Assembly (NCBI GenBank): GCA_026990595.1
Contig: JALXCZ010000052.1
Location: forward strand, 30,738 to 94,737
Source of the DNA: Sulfurovum sp.
GTDB taxonomy: Bacteria > Campylobacterota > Campylobacteria > Campylobacterales > Sulfurovaceae
Direction of reading: 5' to 3'
DNA length: 64,000 bases
Made by a program: the position numbers and the translations under genes. The notes beneath the pieces were generated by a model that was not told where the DNA came from, did no database searches, and saw only the letters and a program-made list of their open reading frames with translations. This document shows, piece after piece, positions 12,749-36,610 of the stretch; within the stretch, counting starts at the first letter, position 1; each line of letters begins with the position of its first letter.

Positions 12749-12839
12749 AAAAAAATCCTTGACAAAATTTTTTAATTATACCCAACTTAAGAGTTATTTA
12801 AGCACCCAATATATATAATTCCGTCCACAAGTTGTGAAT

Positions 12840-12914
12840 GGCCCCATCGTCTAACGGTTAGGATCCATGGTTTTCATCCATGTTATAGGAGTTCGAGTCT
12901 CCTTGGGGTCACCA
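12840..12914 (+). tRNA. tRNA-Glu(TTC), copy 1
   Basis: Cloverleaf by eye: acceptor GGCCCCA/TGGGGTC, anticodon arm CATGG-TTTTCAT-CCATG, encoded CCA. Confidence 0.96.
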
Positions 12915-12945
12915 TTTATATCTTGTAAACTTTTAAAATTTTGTT

Positions 12946-13020
12946 GGCCCCATCGTCTAACGGTTAGGATCCATGGTTTTCATCCATGTTATAGGAGTTC
13001 GAGTCTCCTTGGGGTCACCA
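12946..13020 (+). tRNA. tRNA-Glu(TTC), copy 2
   Basis: Identical 75-nt sequence to copy 1, 31 nt downstream. Confidence 0.96.
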
Positions 13021-19848: not shown

Positions 19849-21174
19849 ATGCGTAAAATAGGATTCGGACTCATAGGCATTCTTGCACTTGCTGCGATCT
19901 ACTATTTCACCTCAGGCTCAACACGTGTCACAGAAGAGATGAAGAAACAAGTCAACCATGAGCTGACAACATTGCAGCAGAACGGTTTTGGCATAGAGAA
20001 CAGGGAGGTTGGGAAAACCCAAGAGCATTTCATCCTTGACTTTTCTGAGCCTGAGAAGATCATTGCCTACCTGAATCATCAAGGTGTGCAGATAAACACC
20101 AAAAACCTCTCTTCGCTTAAAGGCATGAAGTTTGCCGTAGATGCAAAATACCTGAAAGATGCCTACAGTGCACTCAGTACAGACATCTCTGTGAAAGCAC
20201 TTCCGGATGAAGTAGTGGCAGCACTGCAAAAAAAAGATCCCGGACTGCTGGCACACATCAACAAAATGATAGATAACAAAAGCCTGCTTCTGCATGTAGA
20301 TTTTAACAAACTGCTCAACGGGTTTAAGGGCTATGTCAAAGACATCAATGAGACTTTTCCCGATGATGTTTCTGTAAACCTGCTTGCGCAAGGCATGACC
20401 TTTGAAGGAAGCCTTGTCAATGAAAAGCTTAAAACACTGAAACAGCACATCGCACAACTCTCACTGCATGCGGACAAAGCTGTAGAAGTGGTGCTTAAGA
20501 ATCTTACTGCAACATACACCCTTACAGGAGCAACCAACTATGATGCACAGACGACGTACAGCGTGGAAAACCTCAAAGCGTATGCAGCAGACGATTTTCA
20601 GATGGAGGGGGTAAACATCAAAGGTACCTCAACCACAGCGCTGCACAACAAACTTTTAAAAAGCAGTGCAAGCAGTACCATTGAAAAGATCACTCTTCAA
20701 GAGAAACAAAACCGCTATGCCTTGACTGAGACTTCACTGGATGTCACACTTGACAACCTTGACATAGAAGCCTTTGAAAAGCTTCAAAAAACAGATCCTC
20801 GGGATCGTCTTGCCATTAACAAACTCTCAGAGCAGATCCTCACCCAGGGAATTGAACTCAACATCAGTAACCTCTCTTCCAAAGAGGTAAACATACAACA
20901 TCAGCCTATGGGCAGTTTTCATCTGAATGCCTACGGAAAAATAGATAGTTCTCTTGACCTGACAGCAGCACAGCAGAATCCACTGATCTTGTTACAGGCT
21001 CTCAGTGCTAAAACACATATTGAAGCCTCACCCGCACTCTTTTCACATCTCATGCAAGACCCAAGAGCCATGATGGTCATGATGCTCATTCCTCCACAAG
21101 AGAAGAATGGTCAAAAAGTGTATGATCTGAAGTACCTCAAGGGGAAACTGACTGTCAACGGGGTCTCTTTCTAA
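19849..21174 (+). CDS. hypothetical exported protein, possibly DUF945/YdgA-like
   Basis: 441 aa, N-terminal TM then long soluble region; overall resemblance only. Confidence 0.5.
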   Translation: MRKIGFGLIGILALAAIYYFTSGSTRVTEEMKKQVNHELTTLQQNGFGIENREVGKTQEHFILDFSEPEKIIAYLNHQGVQINTKNLSSLKGMKFAVDAKYLKDAYSALSTDISVKALPDEVVAALQKKDPGLLAHINKMIDNKSLLLHVDFNKLLNGFKGYVKDINETFPDDVSVNLLAQGMTFEGSLVNEKLKTLKQHIAQLSLHADKAVEVVLKNLTATYTLTGATNYDAQTTYSVENLKAYAADDFQMEGVNIKGTSTTALHNKLLKSSASSTIEKITLQEKQNRYALTETSLDVTLDNLDIEAFEKLQKTDPRDRLAINKLSEQILTQGIELNISNLSSKEVNIQHQPMGSFHLNAYGKIDSSLDLTAAQQNPLILLQALSAKTHIEASPALFSHLMQDPRAMMVMMLIPPQEKNGQKVYDLKYLKGKLTVNGVSF

Positions 21175-21737
21175 AAAAGCGTTGGTTCATCCAGACTTTT
21201 TACCCTGAATGTTTTACGGTGGATCTCACATCTGTCATATTTTGCCAGAGCCTCTATGTGGGCTTTGGTACCATACCCTTTATGTTTCTCAAACCCGTAC
21301 TCTGGGTACAACTTAGCCTGCTCTACTATCTCTCTGTCTCGTGTCACCTTAGCCAAGATACTCGCGGCACTCACCTCTTGCACTTTGTCATCTGCCTTGA
21401 TCATGGTCGTAATGTTGTCAACCCCGAAAGTACTGTTGCCGTCAAACAGGTACCGGGCATTCTGCAAGACTTTCTGTATAGTGCGTAAACCTTGCTGTAA
21501 ACATTTGGAGATACCTAATTCATCTACCTCAGCAGCAGAAAAACAGACAATATGATGATCGGAATTCTCAATGATCAAACAATACAATGCCTCCCTCTTC
21601 TTCTGGGTCAACTTCTTGGAGTCCATCAACCCGTCAATAGGATTTTTAAGGATCACCCCGGCTATCACAAGTGAACCCGCCAAAGGACCTCGTCCTGCTT
21701 CGTCTATGCCGCAGAGAGGTTTGTTCTGTTCTTTCAT
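21171..21737 (-). CDS. rnhB: ribonuclease HII
   Basis: CGIDEAGRGPLAGSLVIAGV; DSKKLTQKKRE; KADDKVQEVSAASILAKVTRD. Confidence 0.95.
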   Translation of the reverse strand: MKEQNKPLCGIDEAGRGPLAGSLVIAGVILKNPIDGLMDSKKLTQKKREALYCLIIENSDHHIVCFSAAEVDELGISKCLQQGLRTIQKVLQNARYLFDGNSTFGVDNITTMIKADDKVQEVSAASILAKVTRDREIVEQAKLYPEYGFEKHKGYGTKAHIEALAKYDRCEIHRKTFRVKSLDEPTLF

Positions 21738-21776
21738 TTTTTCTCCGAATTGTTTTTATTTTGTATACCCATCTTC

Positions 21777-21802
21777 GGTGTTGTAAGGGTACAACACCCT
21801 AC
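21777..21802 (-). repeat. REP type I
   Basis: GGTGTTGT-aagggt-ACAACACC-CTAC. Confidence 0.88.
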
Positions 21803-21840
21803 AGGATTTTCACTATATTAAATTAATTTATATTCCAACC

Positions 21841-21866
21841 GTAGGGTGTTGTCCCATGACAACACC
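21841..21866 (+). repeat. REP type I
   Basis: GTAG-GGTGTTGT-cccatg-ACAACACC. Confidence 0.88.
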
Positions 21867-21881
21867 TTCTAAATTCGCATA

Positions 21882-22790
21882 TCATACCAATCCTAACTCC
21901 TTGGCAATATCTCTTGTCAATTTGGATAATGGACGTTTGTGTAAATCATCTTCTTGACTATAGTTTGAAAACAGATATCTAAATATCTCATCTTTACTAA
22001 AACCAAATTTTGAAAGTTCTGTAATGTAGCTATCGGGATAATATGCTTTTTTAATAAGTAATTCAAGTACAACATCCTTATGTTGTTTATATAGTTCTTC
22101 CAATTTGAAAAGTTCTATATTACTCTGATTACCACTTATTCCTATTTCAAAACTATCAAAATTGTACTTTTCTTTTTCTACGGCTACAAAATCAACATTT
22201 TTAGGTTTATATGTAAATCTACAAGAGTTATCTACGACATCATATGGATTTTCCAAATCTTCCTTTTCTGTATCACTCTTTGTATGATTACATATAGAGC
22301 AAGAAGGGATAAGATTATAAAAACTCATTGCTAAAAATGGATATATTGATTTTGGATAAAAATGGTCTATTTCAGGTCGTAGTTTTCCATTATCGCTATC
22401 TATAACAAAAGTATAGTTACGGTTACAGTAAGGGCAACTGTTTAACCCTAATGCTTTCACAAAATAATATGCCCCATAAGTCGTTCTTGTACTCCAGTTT
22501 GTATATTCTCTCTCAAATATTCTCTTACGAAGTATTGTATTTAACGCACTACCATTATTTGTACTATCGGGATAATTTTCACGAAAATAGGAGATAATCG
22601 TTTTAAGTTCTCTTGTATCTGCTTTTAATATTTTTTCTATATTAGTGTCTATGAGTAAATACTCCAAACAAGATACTATATTTTCATCTAATCCCTCTCT
22701 ATCAACATTATTTACATTATTTCTAATCTTGACAGATATTTTAGATGTATGCTTGTCTAAAAGCTCTTGATTAAGTCTAATCCCAATCAT
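21882..22790 (-). CDS. HNH endonuclease, Septu PtuB-like
   Basis: CPYCNRNYTFVIDSDNGKLRPEIDHFYPKSIYPFLAMSFYNLIPSCSICNHTKSD, an HNH core with two CxxC pairs; 14-nt overlap with upstream ATPase gene. Confidence 0.82.
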   Translation of the reverse strand: MIGIRLNQELLDKHTSKISVKIRNNVNNVDREGLDENIVSCLEYLLIDTNIEKILKADTRELKTIISYFRENYPDSTNNGSALNTILRKRIFEREYTNWSTRTTYGAYYFVKALGLNSCPYCNRNYTFVIDSDNGKLRPEIDHFYPKSIYPFLAMSFYNLIPSCSICNHTKSDTEKEDLENPYDVVDNSCRFTYKPKNVDFVAVEKEKYNFDSFEIGISGNQSNIELFKLEELYKQHKDVVLELLIKKAYYPDSYITELSKFGFSKDEIFRYLFSNYSQEDDLHKRPLSKLTRDIAKELGLV

Positions 22791-24510
22791 CAGATTTAAG
22801 CCTCTCTATTTTAGCTTCATATTCTGCGATTTGTTCTTCTTTTGTTTTGGGGAACCTTTCGCTATACATAAAAAGTAATTTTTCTTTTAAAAATGGTTCA
22901 CCTATGGTATTTATTATTTGATAGAGTCTCTCTTTGTCTGCTGTATATAGTTCGTTTTTATCATCAAAAAACTCTATAATCTCATTTAGTTTCCCCTTAG
23001 CAAACTCCCCCATAAGACCATCTTCCATGAAGAAACTGTCACTTAGTAGAGTGTGGATATTTGCTCCGAAGGTTTGTTGTTTTAAACCTATATCTTTTTG
23101 ACCATCTCTCAAAAAATAGATATTTTCATTGGGTATATCAGAAAGTATAAAAGGTGAATGTGTTGCACAAATAATATTAAAAGTATAATCTTTCTTTTTC
23201 TCTAAAACCTGTATTAAAATATTTAAAAATCTTCTTTGCCATTCTGGGTGCAAACCTTGTTCTACCTCATCTAGTAAAAGATTTATATGTTTATATTCAG
23301 GATGTGACTTTAAATTTTCTAATTGATTTAATAAACTATAAATAAATTTAATTATAAATTTCTGTCCATAACTTAAAGAATAAAAAGAAACATTATTTTT
23401 ATCAAAAAAATCAATATCTACATAAGGAGGAAGATTTAATAAAAGCTCCTTATTTTCAATAATATTTTTTTTACCATGTAATAAATCCCATGTTATTGAC
23501 TCTATCTCGCAATTTTCTATATACTCTAAAAAATTAAAAGTATCTTCAATTTTTCGTATTTTATAAATATATGAATTATCATACAATGTATCAAATTTAT
23601 GCTTTTTAATATAACTTATTAGACTATCAAAATTTTCATCTAAATTATCTTTTTCTAGTAAACTTTTAAAGTGAGGGTCGTTTATAAATGTATAATTATC
23701 ATCCTTTCCTTTATCAATTGTTTTTCTTAGGATATAGTAATATGATTTCAAAGAATACTTCTTTTTATCGGAATACGATGAAGATATATCTTCAACTTTT
23801 TTAAGAATAAATGAATTGTTTTTTGAAATATTATCTGAACTATTCGAAAGTTCGCAGGATACAGGAATAAAAAAATCTTTGATAAAATCAAATTCTATAT
23901 TATTCTTAATAGTAAAGTATAAGATATCTTTTGTAGCCAAATAGTCTATGTTCGATAAGGATATTTTTCTATTTGCCTTATTGGGTTGTAATAAAATTGG
24001 TGTAGCATAATCATCATTCTTATGATAAAGTTTGTCAAAATCTAAATTGTTTTCATTGTTGTTTATCCAATCTAAACTATAGTTATAATGGAATGTAAAA
24101 AGTGAATTATCATCTTTTTCATATTTTCTAAAATTTCCTATAGTAGTTATATCTTCTTTATTAAATATATTTAAATTTACTCCACCAAGTTTACTATAAC
24201 AATATTTCTTTTTGTCATCACTATAAAATACTGCTAGTACTTGATAGGGTTCATCAATAGGAATCACATTATTATGCATCAAATTACTGAGTAATGCCTC
24301 AAATAAATTACTCTTCCCACTCCCATTCTTCCCAACAATAGCAGTCACATTAATATTGTCACCAAAAAAGTTTTCTATGTAGTCATCGTTTTCATCAATG
24401 GTCAATTCATTTTTAACATCATCATAGTTGCAAGTAAATCGAGGAGAAAAATTAAACCCCTGCTTCTGAATGTTTTTATAATCCTTCACCCATAAATAGA
24501 CCAATTCCAT
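22777..24510 (-). CDS. AAA/SMC-like ATPase, Septu PtuA-like
   Basis: Walker A VGKNGSGKSNLFEALL; signature-like YSLSYGQKFIIKF; Walker B INLLLDEVEQGLHPEWQRRFL; ICATHSPFILSD; FGANIHTLLSDSFFM. Confidence 0.85.
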   Translation of the reverse strand: MELVYLWVKDYKNIQKQGFNFSPRFTCNYDDVKNELTIDENDDYIENFFGDNINVTAIVGKNGSGKSNLFEALLSNLMHNNVIPIDEPYQVLAVFYSDDKKKYCYSKLGGVNLNIFNKEDITTIGNFRKYEKDDNSLFTFHYNYSLDWINNNENNLDFDKLYHKNDDYATPILLQPNKANRKISLSNIDYLATKDILYFTIKNNIEFDFIKDFFIPVSCELSNSSDNISKNNSFILKKVEDISSSYSDKKKYSLKSYYYILRKTIDKGKDDNYTFINDPHFKSLLEKDNLDENFDSLISYIKKHKFDTLYDNSYIYKIRKIEDTFNFLEYIENCEIESITWDLLHGKKNIIENKELLLNLPPYVDIDFFDKNNVSFYSLSYGQKFIIKFIYSLLNQLENLKSHPEYKHINLLLDEVEQGLHPEWQRRFLNILIQVLEKKKDYTFNIICATHSPFILSDIPNENIYFLRDGQKDIGLKQQTFGANIHTLLSDSFFMEDGLMGEFAKGKLNEIIEFFDDKNELYTADKERLYQIINTIGEPFLKEKLLFMYSERFPKTKEEQIAEYEAKIERLKSDDWD

Positions 24511-24536
24511 ACTTTCCCTTTGTAATCAATGCAATA

Positions 24537-24542
24537 ATTATA
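24537..24542 (-). promoter_or_regulatory. candidate -10 box for the ATPase/HNH operon
   Basis: TATAAT on minus strand about 27 nt upstream of the ATPase start. Confidence 0.45.
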
Positions 24543-24553
24543 GCCAAATTTAT

Positions 24554-24579
24554 GGTGTTGTGAGGGCACAACACCCTAC
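24554..24579 (-). repeat. REP type I
   Basis: GGTGTTGT-gagggc-ACAACACC-CTAC. Confidence 0.88.
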
Positions 24580-24609
24580 AGCCCTCATGCTATTTAAATT
24601 TTACCAACC

Positions 24610-24635
24610 GTAGGGTGTTGTACCCTTACAACACC
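24610..24635 (+). repeat. REP type I
   Basis: GTAG-GGTGTTGT-accctt-ACAACACC. Confidence 0.88.
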
Positions 24636-24755
24636 GATAATTTGAACGGCAATAAAATTATATTTGCATTACGTATTCAAATTCCAATTGAATACAAAAA
24701 TATGACAATTTGCCATATTTTTTATATCTCATATCTATCTATGCTACTATTGAAT

Positions 24756-25232
24756 ATGTCAAATTATAAACGAATATATCTTGATGGGTATAGCTACTTT
24801 ATCACCATGGTTACCCAAGGAAGAAACCCTATACTCATTGACAACATTACACTCTTACGTGACAGCTTCAAACGGAGCAAACAACGGTATGATTATCAAC
24901 TAAATGCTATTGTCATTTTACCTGACCATATACATATGATACTCACACCCAAAAACCCTGAGGAATACTCCAAAATCATCACCCACATCAAACGAAGCTT
25001 TGTTTATGGACTAGATACATCATTCAAAGAAAAAGCCAAACTACACCTAAGTACCTCTAGCTACCAACGTAAACTCTCAGGCATCTGGCAAAAAAGATTT
25101 TATGAACATACCATAAGAGATGAAAAAGACTGGCTTGAAAAGATACATTATATACAACACAATGCTGTCAAACATGCCTACGTTGACACATGGGAAGCAT
25201 GGGAATATTCATCATTCACAAAAAACCCGTAG
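24756..25232 (+). CDS. REP-associated tyrosine transposase (RAYT / TnpA_REP, HUH Y1 family)
   Basis: YFITMVTQGR, HUH motif ILPDHIHMILTP, catalytic-Tyr region HYIQHNAVKHAY; internal ATG at 24756 preferred over the ORF-track GTG that lies inside a REP. Confidence 0.9.
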   Translation: MSNYKRIYLDGYSYFITMVTQGRNPILIDNITLLRDSFKRSKQRYDYQLNAIVILPDHIHMILTPKNPEEYSKIITHIKRSFVYGLDTSFKEKAKLHLSTSSYQRKLSGIWQKRFYEHTIRDEKDWLEKIHYIQHNAVKHAYVDTWEAWEYSSFTKNP

Positions 25233-25254
25233 GGTGTTGTACCGCTACAACACC
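25229..25254 (+). repeat. REP type I
   Basis: GTAG-GGTGTTGT-accgct-ACAACACC; TAG is the RAYT stop codon. Confidence 0.88.
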
Positions 25255-25312
25255 GATAATTTAAACAACAAACATACCCGTGAATGCATAATATTATACA
25301 ATTCAAATTTGT

Positions 25313-25338
25313 GGTGTTGTGAGGGCACAACACCCTAC
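25313..25338 (-). repeat. REP type I
   Basis: GGTGTTGT-gagggc-ACAACACC-CTAC. Confidence 0.88.
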
Positions 25339-25395
25339 ATCTTTATGAAATTTAAACTTTATTTATAATTCAGCAATAAACTTATTTTCAATCTA

Positions 25396-25731
25396 CTAAG
25401 CAGCACTTATATCAATTCTATAATCCAATAACTTGGGTTCTCTCTGCAACAACTCTAAGAGTACCATTGTAGAGCCACTTGGTTGTCGGATACCTTGTTC
25501 CCACTGTCTCACAGAAGATAGGCTTACATTGAGCAATTTGGCAAATACGGACTGACTTACATTTAATGCCTTGCGTATCTTTTGTATATCTTTTGCAGAT
25601 ACAAATGCTTTTGGCACATCTATACCTAAACTATCTAACTCTTTTTTAGTAAATGATACAGGTAAATCAGCTTTTATCATGTCATTTACTGTGGATGATA
25701 TGGCATCTTTTATGCTATCTCTCATTTGCAT
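25396..25731 (-). CDS. XRE-family antitoxin
   Basis: HTH IQKIRKALNVSQSVFAKLLNVSLSSVRQWEQGIRQPSG; overlaps upstream toxin gene. Confidence 0.82.
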   Translation of the reverse strand: MQMRDSIKDAISSTVNDMIKADLPVSFTKKELDSLGIDVPKAFVSAKDIQKIRKALNVSQSVFAKLLNVSLSSVRQWEQGIRQPSGSTMVLLELLQREPKLLDYRIDISAA

Positions 25732-26107
25732 CTCCTATCTCTAAAAATACTTCATTTTTAATGGCAATTTTCATCTCTTTTTCTGTCAAGTTCAAGATAT
25801 CTTTTGACATTTTCTTAAAACTTTTTAGTTCACTTTTATCTAAGTTGTCTTTCTCTTTTTTAGTAAAGCCATACACTATGACTGCTCTATCATTTTCACG
25901 GTAAACTATAATCGTTCTGTATCCAGAACTTTTACCACCATCTAAAGAGGCAACACGTACTTTAAACAAACCGCTTCCAAGACTAACACTTGAAAGATTT
26001 TGTTTCATATCTTCGATTACATCCAAAAGATGTCCATCAGATATGTGATGTTTCTTAGCCCATTTAGAAAACCATTTCGTTTTTAAACTAACCATATTAT
26101 ATCTCAT
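25715..26107 (-). CDS. RelE/HigB-like toxin
   Basis: GLFKVRVASLDGGKSSGYRTIIVYRENDRAVIVYGFTKKEKDN pattern; toxin-first order with XRE partner. Confidence 0.8.
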   Translation of the reverse strand: MRYNMVSLKTKWFSKWAKKHHISDGHLLDVIEDMKQNLSSVSLGSGLFKVRVASLDGGKSSGYRTIIVYRENDRAVIVYGFTKKEKDNLDKSELKSFKKMSKDILNLTEKEMKIAIKNEVFLEIGDANER

Positions 26108-26125
26108 TGTAGTATAGTTGTCAAA

Positions 26126-27907
26126 TTATACATCTTGCAAGACTCCCAAAAACGCCTCCCCATACCTCTCAAACTTCACCTCTCCTATGCCATGTACTTC
26201 CAACATCTCTTCTTTGTTTTGTGGTACTTTGCTTGAGAGGTCTTTAAGTGTTTTATCTGAAAATACGATGTAAGGCGGAATGCCTTTTTCGGAGGCGATC
26301 TGTGTGCGTAATGTACGGAGTTTGTCGTACATCTCCACATCGTAGTCGTCAAAGTAAGTCACTTTCTTTTTCGCTTCTGCTTTTTGTATGGTAAGTCTCT
26401 CTTTTTTGAGGTCTATGGTGTGAGCACCTTTGATGACCTCTACCCCAAACTCTGTCAACTTGTAAACTTTAAATTCACCTATGGCAACGGCACCAAGCTC
26501 TAAAAGCTTGTCACCTATGGTAAGCCATTGACTCTTGCTGTATTCGTCTCCTATGCCATACACTGACAAGCTGTCGTGTCCATTTTGCAAGAGGCGCTGT
26601 TCTTTACTGCCTTTGAGTACATCTACGATGTAGTGAAGCCCGAAGTTCTGCTCTGTTCTAAGAATGGCAGAGAGCATCATGCGTGCAGCTGTGGTAATGT
26701 CAACTTTTTCAGACGCTGGGGCTGTACAGTTGTCACATTTGTTTCCACATGACTCTATACGGTCATCAAAGTAGGCGGCAATACTTTGGTGTCTGCAGTT
26801 TTCAGAGTTGGCAAAGCGTACCATGCTGTCAAGCTTGTTGAAGGCATGTTCTTTGTAAGGTGTCTCGGGTAAGTCTTCTATGAACATCTTTTGCTGCACG
26901 ATATCTGCTGCCGAGTAAAGCAGCAGGGTTTCAGCCTCAAGACCGTCACGTCCTGCACGTCCTATCTCCTGATAGAAGTTCTCCAGCGTCTTAGGCATGG
27001 TCATATGTACCACGAAACGAATGTTACTCTTGTCTATCCCCATACCAAAAGCAATGGTAGCTACAACTATCTGTACACGGTCAGCTACGAAGTCTGCATA
27101 GGTTCTGTTTTTCTCTTGGGTAGGCAGACCTGCATGATAGGCTTTTGCCTCTATGCCTTTGCCTTGTAAAAAAGAGGCAATGTTCTCTGTAGATTTACGT
27201 GAAAGCGTGTAGATGATACCTGACTCGTTGGGATGGAGTTTTAAAAACTCCATCAACTGTGCACGTCCGTCTTTGATGCGGTGTCTTGCATTGATGGTCA
27301 GGTTCTCCCGAAAGAGGGAACCTCGGACACGTTTTGGCTCTACCAGACCCAGGTTTGTTGCGATGTCCTGCTCTACTGCTTTGGTAGCTGTGGCAGTAAA
27401 GGCTGCTATGGGTGTGGTGGCAAACTGCTCTTTAAGCAGACTCAAGCGTCTATAGTTTTCTCTAAATTCATGCCCCCACTCTGACACGCAGTGTGCTTCG
27501 TCAATAACAAAGAAGTTTATGGGGAGTTGATGCAGAAGATTGAGAAAATAGGCATTGGTCAAACGTTCCGGTGCGACATAGAGCAGTTTTATCTCACCAC
27601 TTCTGAGCTGCTCTTCTATCTTCTGGCTCTCATCAAGGTCTTGCATGGAGCTTAGCATAGCTGCAGAGATGCCATTGGCTCTGAGTGCCACCACCTGATC
27701 ATGCATGAGTGCAAGCAGTGGAGAGACTACCACTGTGATACCCTCCATCAGCAATGTAGGCAGTTGGTAACAGAGTGACTTTCCTCCTCCTGTTGGAAGT
27801 ATCATCAGCACATCCTCTTTGTTTAAAATGGCATCCACCACCTCTTCCTGCAGAGGGCGGAAAGCATCATGTCCGAAATAGTATTTGAGAGTTTCTAATT
27901 TATTCAT
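26126..27907 (-). CDS. recQ: ATP-dependent DNA helicase RecQ
   Basis: LPTGGGKSLCYQLP, FVIDEAHCVSEWGHEFRENYRRL, AFTATAT, QEIGRAGRDGLEA, HRDC-like C-terminus. Confidence 0.95.
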   Translation of the reverse strand: MNKLETLKYYFGHDAFRPLQEEVVDAILNKEDVLMILPTGGGKSLCYQLPTLLMEGITVVVSPLLALMHDQVVALRANGISAAMLSSMQDLDESQKIEEQLRSGEIKLLYVAPERLTNAYFLNLLHQLPINFFVIDEAHCVSEWGHEFRENYRRLSLLKEQFATTPIAAFTATATKAVEQDIATNLGLVEPKRVRGSLFRENLTINARHRIKDGRAQLMEFLKLHPNESGIIYTLSRKSTENIASFLQGKGIEAKAYHAGLPTQEKNRTYADFVADRVQIVVATIAFGMGIDKSNIRFVVHMTMPKTLENFYQEIGRAGRDGLEAETLLLYSAADIVQQKMFIEDLPETPYKEHAFNKLDSMVRFANSENCRHQSIAAYFDDRIESCGNKCDNCTAPASEKVDITTAARMMLSAILRTEQNFGLHYIVDVLKGSKEQRLLQNGHDSLSVYGIGDEYSKSQWLTIGDKLLELGAVAIGEFKVYKLTEFGVEVIKGAHTIDLKKERLTIQKAEAKKKVTYFDDYDVEMYDKLRTLRTQIASEKGIPPYIVFSDKTLKDLSSKVPQNKEEMLEVHGIGEVKFERYGEAFLGVLQDV

Positions 27908-35044: not shown

Positions 35045-35311
35045 ATGCAACAGTTAAAAGAAATCCTACTTGACGCAAGAGAATTGGAACATCCAAAACC
35101 TCTTGAGCATGCTATACACGCATTAAGAGAACTGAATGAAACAAACTATTTCTATATGATCCATCGTAAGAACCCTATACCGTTGCTTGATCTTGCCAGT
35201 GAACAGCATTTTCAAGCATTAAGCAAAGAAGATAACAAAGGCATTTGGCATATATTTATTTGCAAAAATCCTAATATTCGTTTAAATGAGCTGATTGAGA
35301 GTCATGTTTAG
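35045..35311 (+). CDS. DUF2249-like protein
   Basis: LLDARELEHPKPLEHAIHALREL; cluster context. Confidence 0.65.
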   Translation: MQQLKEILLDARELEHPKPLEHAIHALRELNETNYFYMIHRKNPIPLLDLASEQHFQALSKEDNKGIWHIFICKNPNIRLNELIESHV

Positions 35312-36584
35312 CCAAAACGGTCTCTCTCTCGATCAAGCGCCTCCTATTTCAGTAGTTTTTCGTTTCTTTCTTTCTGGTGCACTCTTTGGCATCCTTGCCG
35401 GCATACTCATACTCTTTTTTCAAACAGTAATCTTTGATGCACACAGTATGAAAGCGGTTATCTTGACACATACCTTGACACTGGGTGTCATGTTGTCTTT
35501 TATGTTCGCTGCACTTTTTCAAATGCTTCCGGTTATAGCAGGAGTAACGCTTACTTCCCCCATCAAGAAAGCAAATCTTGTACAATATCCTTTTGTCTTA
35601 GGTGTGACTGCTCTACTTTTAGCCTTTAACTTCTCTTCTCCGTGGCTTTTTACGGTAGCATCACTTTTACTTGGAGGAAGTATTCTTTTTATCACGATTA
35701 TTATGCTTAGTAACCTTGTAAAACTTCCTAACCAGAGCAGCTCATCCAGGGGAATGTTGACAGCCCTGGCTTCTTTGGCAATCGTCGTTCTTCTGGCACT
35801 CTATATGACAGGAACGTTAAGCGGTTTATTTGAAGGAAGTTATTATACTCAGATCAAAACAGCCCACTACTCTTTTGGACTTTTTGGCTGGATAGCACTG
35901 CTTATTATCTCTATTTCATTCCAGGTCATAGAGATGTTCTATGTCACACCGCCCTACCCAAAACTTGTCAGTAAATATCTGCCATTGACACTTTTAACGC
36001 TACTTGTCATCACAACCATCACAGGATTATTTAATCCTAATATATGGGCAGTATCAAATACACTACTTGCTTTACTCTTGATAGGCTATGCCCTCTTGAC
36101 ACTTAAAAGATTGACACAAAGAAAACGACCCTTAACCGATGCTACAGTATGGTTCTGGCGTCTGGGACTTAGCAGTTTGATTTTAAGCATGTTAACACTG
36201 GTTATGACAAACTTTACAGAGTTGTCATGGGTAAAAAGTTCTACTTACCTCTTTTTTGCATCCTTTGCCCTGAGTATTGTCTTTGCGATGTTTTACAAGA
36301 TAGTTCCATTTTTAACATGGTTTCACCTTAACAGCCAAGGCTACTTCACCGCACCCATGATGCACGAAGTCATCCACCCTAAAACAGCGATGAAACATCT
36401 TTACATTCATTTGGCAACACTTGTCACTTTTATATTGTCACTGTTTATAAATCTATTTATTTTTTTAGCAGGTGTATTAACCATACTCTCATTTGGATGG
36501 ATGGCATGGCAGATAATACATGCATGGAGACTCTATAAACATACACAAGAGACTGGGGAGAAGTTTGAGATGAATATTGCGTAG
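35304..36584 (+). CDS. multi-TM NnrS-like / heme-copper-oxidase-like membrane protein
   Basis: About 12 TM segments; conserved-looking His in LTHTLTLGVM and TAHYSFGLFGW; 8-nt overlap with upstream gene; ATG at 35304. Confidence 0.65.
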   Translation: MFSQNGLSLDQAPPISVVFRFFLSGALFGILAGILILFFQTVIFDAHSMKAVILTHTLTLGVMLSFMFAALFQMLPVIAGVTLTSPIKKANLVQYPFVLGVTALLLAFNFSSPWLFTVASLLLGGSILFITIIMLSNLVKLPNQSSSSRGMLTALASLAIVVLLALYMTGTLSGLFEGSYYTQIKTAHYSFGLFGWIALLIISISFQVIEMFYVTPPYPKLVSKYLPLTLLTLLVITTITGLFNPNIWAVSNTLLALLLIGYALLTLKRLTQRKRPLTDATVWFWRLGLSSLILSMLTLVMTNFTELSWVKSSTYLFFASFALSIVFAMFYKIVPFLTWFHLNSQGYFTAPMMHEVIHPKTAMKHLYIHLATLVTFILSLFINLFIFLAGVLTILSFGWMAWQIIHAWRLYKHTQETGEKFEMNIA

Positions 36585-36610
36585 GGTGTTGTGAGGGCAC
36601 AACACCCTAC
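36581..36610. repeat. REP type I, symmetric form with GTAG on both strands
   Basis: GTAG-GGTGTTGT-gagggc-ACAACACC-CTAC; TAG is the stop of the upstream CDS. Confidence 0.88.

Follow-up and report, generated by a model that had tools for sequence, protein, structure and literature searches.

The hairpin repeats and the transposase-like gene described here very probably constitute a REPtron, that is, a single RAYT together with its cognate GTAG hairpins, an already recognised class of mobile or domesticated DNA. They lie in a 64,000-nt stretch of a Sulfurovum sp. contig (JALXCZ010000052.1), hereafter called the window (Table 1). The evidence comprises the identity of the gene, the structure and copy number of the hairpins, the co-variation of hairpin stem and RAYT among relatives, and the presence or absence of hairpin dimers at orthologous sites. 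According to the mechanism we propose, the single-copy RAYT would recognise a single-stranded hairpin in which GTAG is followed by a 9-bp stem free of mismatches and a four-base loop of YCMY type, usually CCCT or CCAT, its catalytic tyrosine would nick beside GTAG, and the enzyme would thereby spread hairpin pairs of ~70–80 bp (BIME/REPIN-like) into intergenic sites. The activities this presupposes, namely single-strand binding, cleavage between C and T, and strand transfer, are those of characterised relatives, from which we infer them for the Sulfurovum enzyme.

Table 1. Position of the RAYT gene, REP hairpins and neighbouring genes in the window.
Feature	Position	Strand	Details
rnhB	21171–21737		flanks RAYT interval
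REP	21777–21802	-	closing pair A-T; exact match
REP	21841–21866	+	closing pair C-G; beyond two defence-like genes; exact match
PDC-M62A/B candidate defence genes (PADLOC)	21882–24510	-	AAA ATPase and HNH, related to Septu PtuAB; between REPs by RAYT
REP	24554–24579	-	closing pair G-C, loop CCCT; exact match
REP	24610–24635	+	closing pair A-T, loop CCCT; exact match
RAYT / TnpA-REP gene	24756–25232	+	158 aa; NF047646, Pfam Y1_Tnp and 4ER8 matches
REP	25229–25254	+	closing pair A-T, loop CCGC; exact match; GTAG supplies RAYT stop
REP	25313–25338	-	closing pair G-C, loop CCCT; exact match
recQ	26126–27907		flanks RAYT interval
REP, perfect palindrome with GTAG at both ends	36581–36610		exact match

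The RAYT gene, its hairpins and their neighbourhood

The RAYT open reading frame, whose translation begins MSNYKRIYLDGYSYFITMV, starts with the ATG at 24756 and takes its TAG stop from within the GTAG of the REP at 25229. Its product scored 139.3 bits against NF047646, the REP-associated tyrosine transposase model of NCBIfam (cut-off 80), and matched Pfam Y1_Tnp, whereas the IS200/IS605 model NF033573 remained below its cut-off (32.2 bits versus 55). By sequence, E. coli TnpA-REP (4ER8) is the nearest protein of solved structure (E 7e-19), and it was also the top match in a fold comparison (E 2e-12, TM 0.76) of an AlphaFold2 model built from 22 relatives (mean pLDDT 89.5). In the alignment of 22 sequences, the HUH motif (H57-I-H59) and the catalytic Y131, with residues counted from the S encoded at 24759, are invariant and aligned with 4ER8; likewise invariant are the block WQKRFYEH and the residues W110, Q111 and R120. 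The latter three and Y131 correspond to W94, Q95, R104 and Y115 of E. coli TnpA-REP, where W94, Q95 and R104 contact GTAG (PMC6006769, PMC8266576). These comparisons support the assignment of the protein to the REP-associated tyrosine transposase family. Its named relatives stem from Sulfurovum and other Campylobacterota assemblies, and in the literature searched we found no biochemical evidence for any Campylobacterota RAYT. The gene is present as a single full copy in the genome and has not been multiplied as a unit; two other Y1 proteins of the source genome are 26–32% identical to it and lack flanking REPs.

Seven loci in the window match GTAGGGTGTTGTN6ACAACACC exactly, with a chance expectation of 0.01 at up to three mismatches, in agreement with the seven copies counted in a reading of the window made from the sequence alone (hereafter the sequence-only reading). 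One of them, matched on both strands (36581/36585), is a single palindrome and was counted once; its GTAG furnishes the stop codon of the open reading frame 35295–36584. The RAYT gene sits between a (- +) pair (24554 and 24610), with the GTAG ends inside, and a (+ -) pair (25229 and 25313), with the GTAG ends outside, so the claim that the HUH/Y1 gene is flanked by oppositely oriented REPs holds, and the span given for the arrangement, 24554–25338, runs exactly from REP to REP.

The geometry had been read as GTAG followed by an 8-6-8 hairpin. The GTAG hairpin as such stands; its dimensions have to be revised to 9-4-9, since hairpin positions 9 and 14 are almost invariably paired. This ninth pair is formed in 81 of 83 genomic copies, against 37.3 expected from base frequencies, with A-T in 32 copies, C-G in 30, G-C in 16 and G-T or T-G in three, two copies being unpaired. 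DNA folding likewise yielded GTAG, a 9-bp stem and a 4-nt loop. The window-type hairpin can be written as GTAG-GGTGTTGTA-CCCT, the loop being CCCT or CCAT in most genomic copies, and covariation and folding agree on a 9-bp perfect palindrome devoid of a bulge, the shape that characterises the hairpins of group 3 REPtrons.

The surroundings of the gene are variable. The rnhB–recQ interval (21737–26126) holds the RAYT alone in one relative (G122), RAYT plus PDC-M62 in three (G066, G086, G103), McrBC without a RAYT in another (G110, L194), and nothing in G100, G111 and G124 (L195, L198, L199). It looks like a defence hotspot, and the PDC-M62 versions found at the same place in relatives are ~35% identical, compared with >80% for recQ. 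The idea that RAYT and PDC-M62 form a functional unit was rejected, because the interval varies by itself, holding RAYT with or without PDC-M62, McrBC or nothing across relatives. Between RAYT and recQ, an HTH antitoxin and RelE-family toxin pair is located at 25396–26107 on the minus strand, which is absent there in the relatives examined. A 441-aa open reading frame next to the variable interval (19849–21174, plus strand) gave no Pfam match and is 33–43% identical in most relatives, its neighbours (chorismate synthase, rnhB) mostly being 77–93% identical; judged from these identities, it appears to be an unusually fast-changing or often replaced gene. Elsewhere in the window (12839–13020), two identical tRNA-like 76-nt repeats lie 106 bp apart.

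Stem identity and copy number across Sulfurovaceae

Of 175 Sulfurovaceae genomes, 94 proved to encode RAYT homologues, a count that includes a divergent Y1 group; the flanks of these genes were searched de novo for GTAG or GTGG hairpins without presetting the stem. Among RAYTs at least 46% identical to that of the window, 60 had repeated flanking hairpins, with GTAG as the tetranucleotide in essentially all cases, while the flanking stem differed by RAYT clade: GGTGTTGTN at ≥69% identity to the window RAYT, GTCGGR and GGTGTA beside RAYTs ~60–66% identical, GGTGCGT and GGTGTGC near 55%, and GTTTGGC, GTGTGAC, GTTCGG and GGTGGG near 50% identity. The stems of other clades include GTTTGGC, GTGTGAC and GGTGCGTT. 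It is the lower stem that differs between RAYT clades; GTAG and the pyrimidine-rich loop are kept in the clades nearest the window RAYT. Eight divergent Y1 proteins (26–31% identity), two of them encoded in the source genome, showed no flanking GTAG or GTGG hairpins.

Stem distance was correlated with distance in the RAYT tree (Mantel r 0.33, a value reached in 0 of 5000 permutations). When each of the 60 RAYTs was compared with its closest counterpart in a different genome, the first six stem bases agreed in 45, compared with 7% of all pairs. As a control for the host, stems were shuffled among the RAYTs of one genome, and none of 2000 shuffles fitted as well; genome G053 alone harbours seven RAYTs with seven different stems. 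Since GTAG is essentially constant and the stem tracks the clade of the RAYT rather than the host, these sequence data support the RAYT being cognate to the hairpins, as the sequence-only reading had proposed from the tetranucleotide; the family match, the equivalents of the GTAG-contacting residues and the tracking of stem by clade in 60 relatives all point in this direction.

Copy number tells a related though less uniform story. In the ten genomes that possess a window-clade RAYT the median is 26 REP copies, versus 0 in the other 165 (P = 2e-8 at family and 5e-5 at genus level, values that ignore relatedness), most of the relatives compared being draft assemblies. The association predicted by the sequence-only reading is therefore present in the medians, but it has exceptions: 23 of the 165 genomes without this clade hold at least 10 copies. 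Two of them, G100 (37 copies) and G111 (41 copies), are nearly complete genomes, and at their rnhB–recQ site tblastn detected neither a RAYT nor a remnant. For the GTGTGAC stem the link is less clean as well, with 2, 3, 3 and 21 copies in the genomes possessing its RAYT and at least 10 copies in nine genomes lacking it. In view of these RAYT-less carriers, REPs seem to outlast the loss of their RAYT, or some other enzyme moves them.

The second option, maintenance of the window REP type in trans by several RAYTs and not just the adjoining one, would account for its abundance in genomes where only other RAYT clades occur, such as G110 (57 copies) and G129 (55). We consider it rather improbable. 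RAYTs adjoining GGTGTTGT hairpins form one group of at least 69% identity, those outside this group having other stems or none, and the same data are explained by simple loss of the RAYT; in Pseudomonas and Stenotrophomonas, REPs have been interpreted as persisting after such loss (PMC3686654).

Dimers, unit edge and orthologous sites

The pattern of the sequence-only reading also held up beyond the window: the source genome (2.05 Mb, 52 contigs) contains ~83 REPs at up to one mismatch, after removal of one double read, while the reversed pattern gave 0 matches. About 80 of these GTAG hairpins are located away from the RAYT gene. Within 130 bp of each other, REPs form 24 pairs with GTAG outside and five with it inside, tandem pairs being absent, and the gap in the GTAG-outside pairs measures 18–58 bp. 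The two members of a GTAG-outside pair differ in the closing base pair in 23 of 24 instances, whereas shuffling gave on average eight alike (P = 0.0007), and all three combinations (A/C, C/G, A/G) occur. In other genomes, counted by eye from listings, 60 of 66 REP pairs were unlike at this position. Heterodimers are known from other GTAG families, where they may escape the removal of long palindromes (Di Nocera 2013, PMC3733652).

The unit has a sharp edge on its GTAG side. Among the 66 exact copies, 65 have a T or C at -1, directly upstream of GTAG (P = 2e-15 versus local composition); C is in excess at -2 (21/66, P = 1e-4), and conservation is otherwise lacking further upstream. In other genomes a pyrimidine occupies -1 in 57 of 65 cases, and the trend extends to most other stem types. 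Cleavage at CT is documented for the RAYTs of E. coli and S. maltophilia; in E. coli the cut falls between C and T, and the T adjoins the joined strand (PMC8266576). A cut of this type would be compatible with a REP unit whose first base is the pyrimidine preceding GTAG.

At four orthologous intergenic sites the source genome has a REP dimer of 70–82 bp where most relatives lack any GTAG hairpin, and at several of the empty sites the net insert is near 0. In some relatives these sites are occupied by dimers with a different stem type, and in six of nine scorable cases, all from these four sites, the foreign-type REPs had the stem of their own genome's RAYT. Such matches were seen at L207, L323 and L254 (G128), L232 (G073), L287 (G071) and L299 (G066). 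One might take this to mean that RAYTs convert or replace REPs at fixed sites, exchanging the type in place in addition to adding new copies, with a unit delimited one base before GTAG and dimers that almost strictly differ in their closing pair. We regard this combined proposal as unlikely; in-place switching was dropped as the main reading, four sites being too few to tell site reuse from exchange.

The placement of REPs relative to genes bears on whether they might instead be elements maintained by the host, such as transcription terminators or gyrase or IHF sites, among which the RAYT merely happens to lie. They are found mostly outside and downstream of genes (17 in convergent, 42 in same-direction and 3 in divergent contexts), which, together with their retention in the RAYT-less G100 and G111, is what a host function would lead one to expect. 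Overlap with open reading frames of at least 80 aa was seen for 14 of 66 REPs, a count that implies no intragenic share because these frames are uncurated. We nevertheless judge a host-maintained origin very improbable, as the stem follows RAYT identity even within one genome, stems vary between species while GTAG stays constant, and a consistent T-run 3' of the stem was not found, the positions there being mixed A/T. GTAG provides the TAG stop of the upstream frame in 8 of 66 exact REPs (e.g., 36581 and 25229). In relatives, 29 of 61 REP-flanked RAYTs end, as does the window RAYT, at the TAG of their cognate GTAG; overlap of REPs with RAYT genes has been noted before (PMC3733652). Interpreting the gene as a plain IS200/IS605 insertion sequence ending in these hairpins is hardly credible despite the common catalytic fold and the Y1_Tnp match, given a score far above the cut-off for the RAYT model and below that for the IS200 model, a single full gene copy facing the many gene-less hairpins, and a RAYT locus that is syntenic in several relatives.

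Relation to characterised REPtrons

Returning to a REPtron as the preferred reading, the closest likeness is with the group 3 REPtrons of Stenotrophomonas maltophilia and Marinomonas (Corneloup 2021, PMC8266576), where a single RAYT likewise lies beside inverted REPs and GTAG adjoins a short palindrome that pairs perfectly around a small loop (in S. maltophilia the stem has 8 bp and the loop 3 nt). The Sulfurovum REP deviates in its 9-bp stem, its 4-nt YCMY loop, its stem sequence and its Campylobacterota host. By their shape, the Sulfurovum hairpins fit the group 3 strategy, in which GTAG, loop and perfect stem are read (PMC8266576). With the group 2 enzyme, E. coli TnpA-REP, the Sulfurovum RAYT has in common the HUH fold, the catalytic tyrosine and the equivalents of W94, Q95 and R104, at 31% identity over the fold match; it differs by ~20 additional residues ahead of the WQ motif, and E. 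coli REPs require a stem bulge whereas the Sulfurovum stems are perfect.

Part of this picture is already known. GTAG repeats of Sulfurovum sp. NBC37-1 were listed in the survey of Di Nocera 2013 (PMC3733652), whose GTAG families likewise comprise GTAG-tagged palindromes that form HH dimers and heterodimers and can overlap RAYT genes, a likeness drawn from their description. RAYT–REP co-evolution was described in gammaproteobacteria (Nunvar 2010, PMC2817692; Nunvar 2013, PMC3686654), with the same co-variation of stem and RAYT, copy number going with the cognate RAYT, and orphan REPs; unlike those studies, ours draws on ~60 Sulfurovaceae RAYTs with a within-genome control. To this the present analysis contributes the large comparative set with that control, a sharply defined unit boundary, a bias towards heterodimers, and evidence that dimers are present in some genomes and absent from others at orthologous sites.

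How REPs spread and which part of the hairpin the RAYT reads have so far been studied in a few gammaproteobacteria. Sulfurovaceae offer a natural panel for stem specificity, with dozens of RAYT–stem pairs, seven of them in one genome, and a comparative signal that is clean, and the Y-GTAG edge and the heterodimer bias lead to concrete predictions on the position of the cut and on the dimers that survive.
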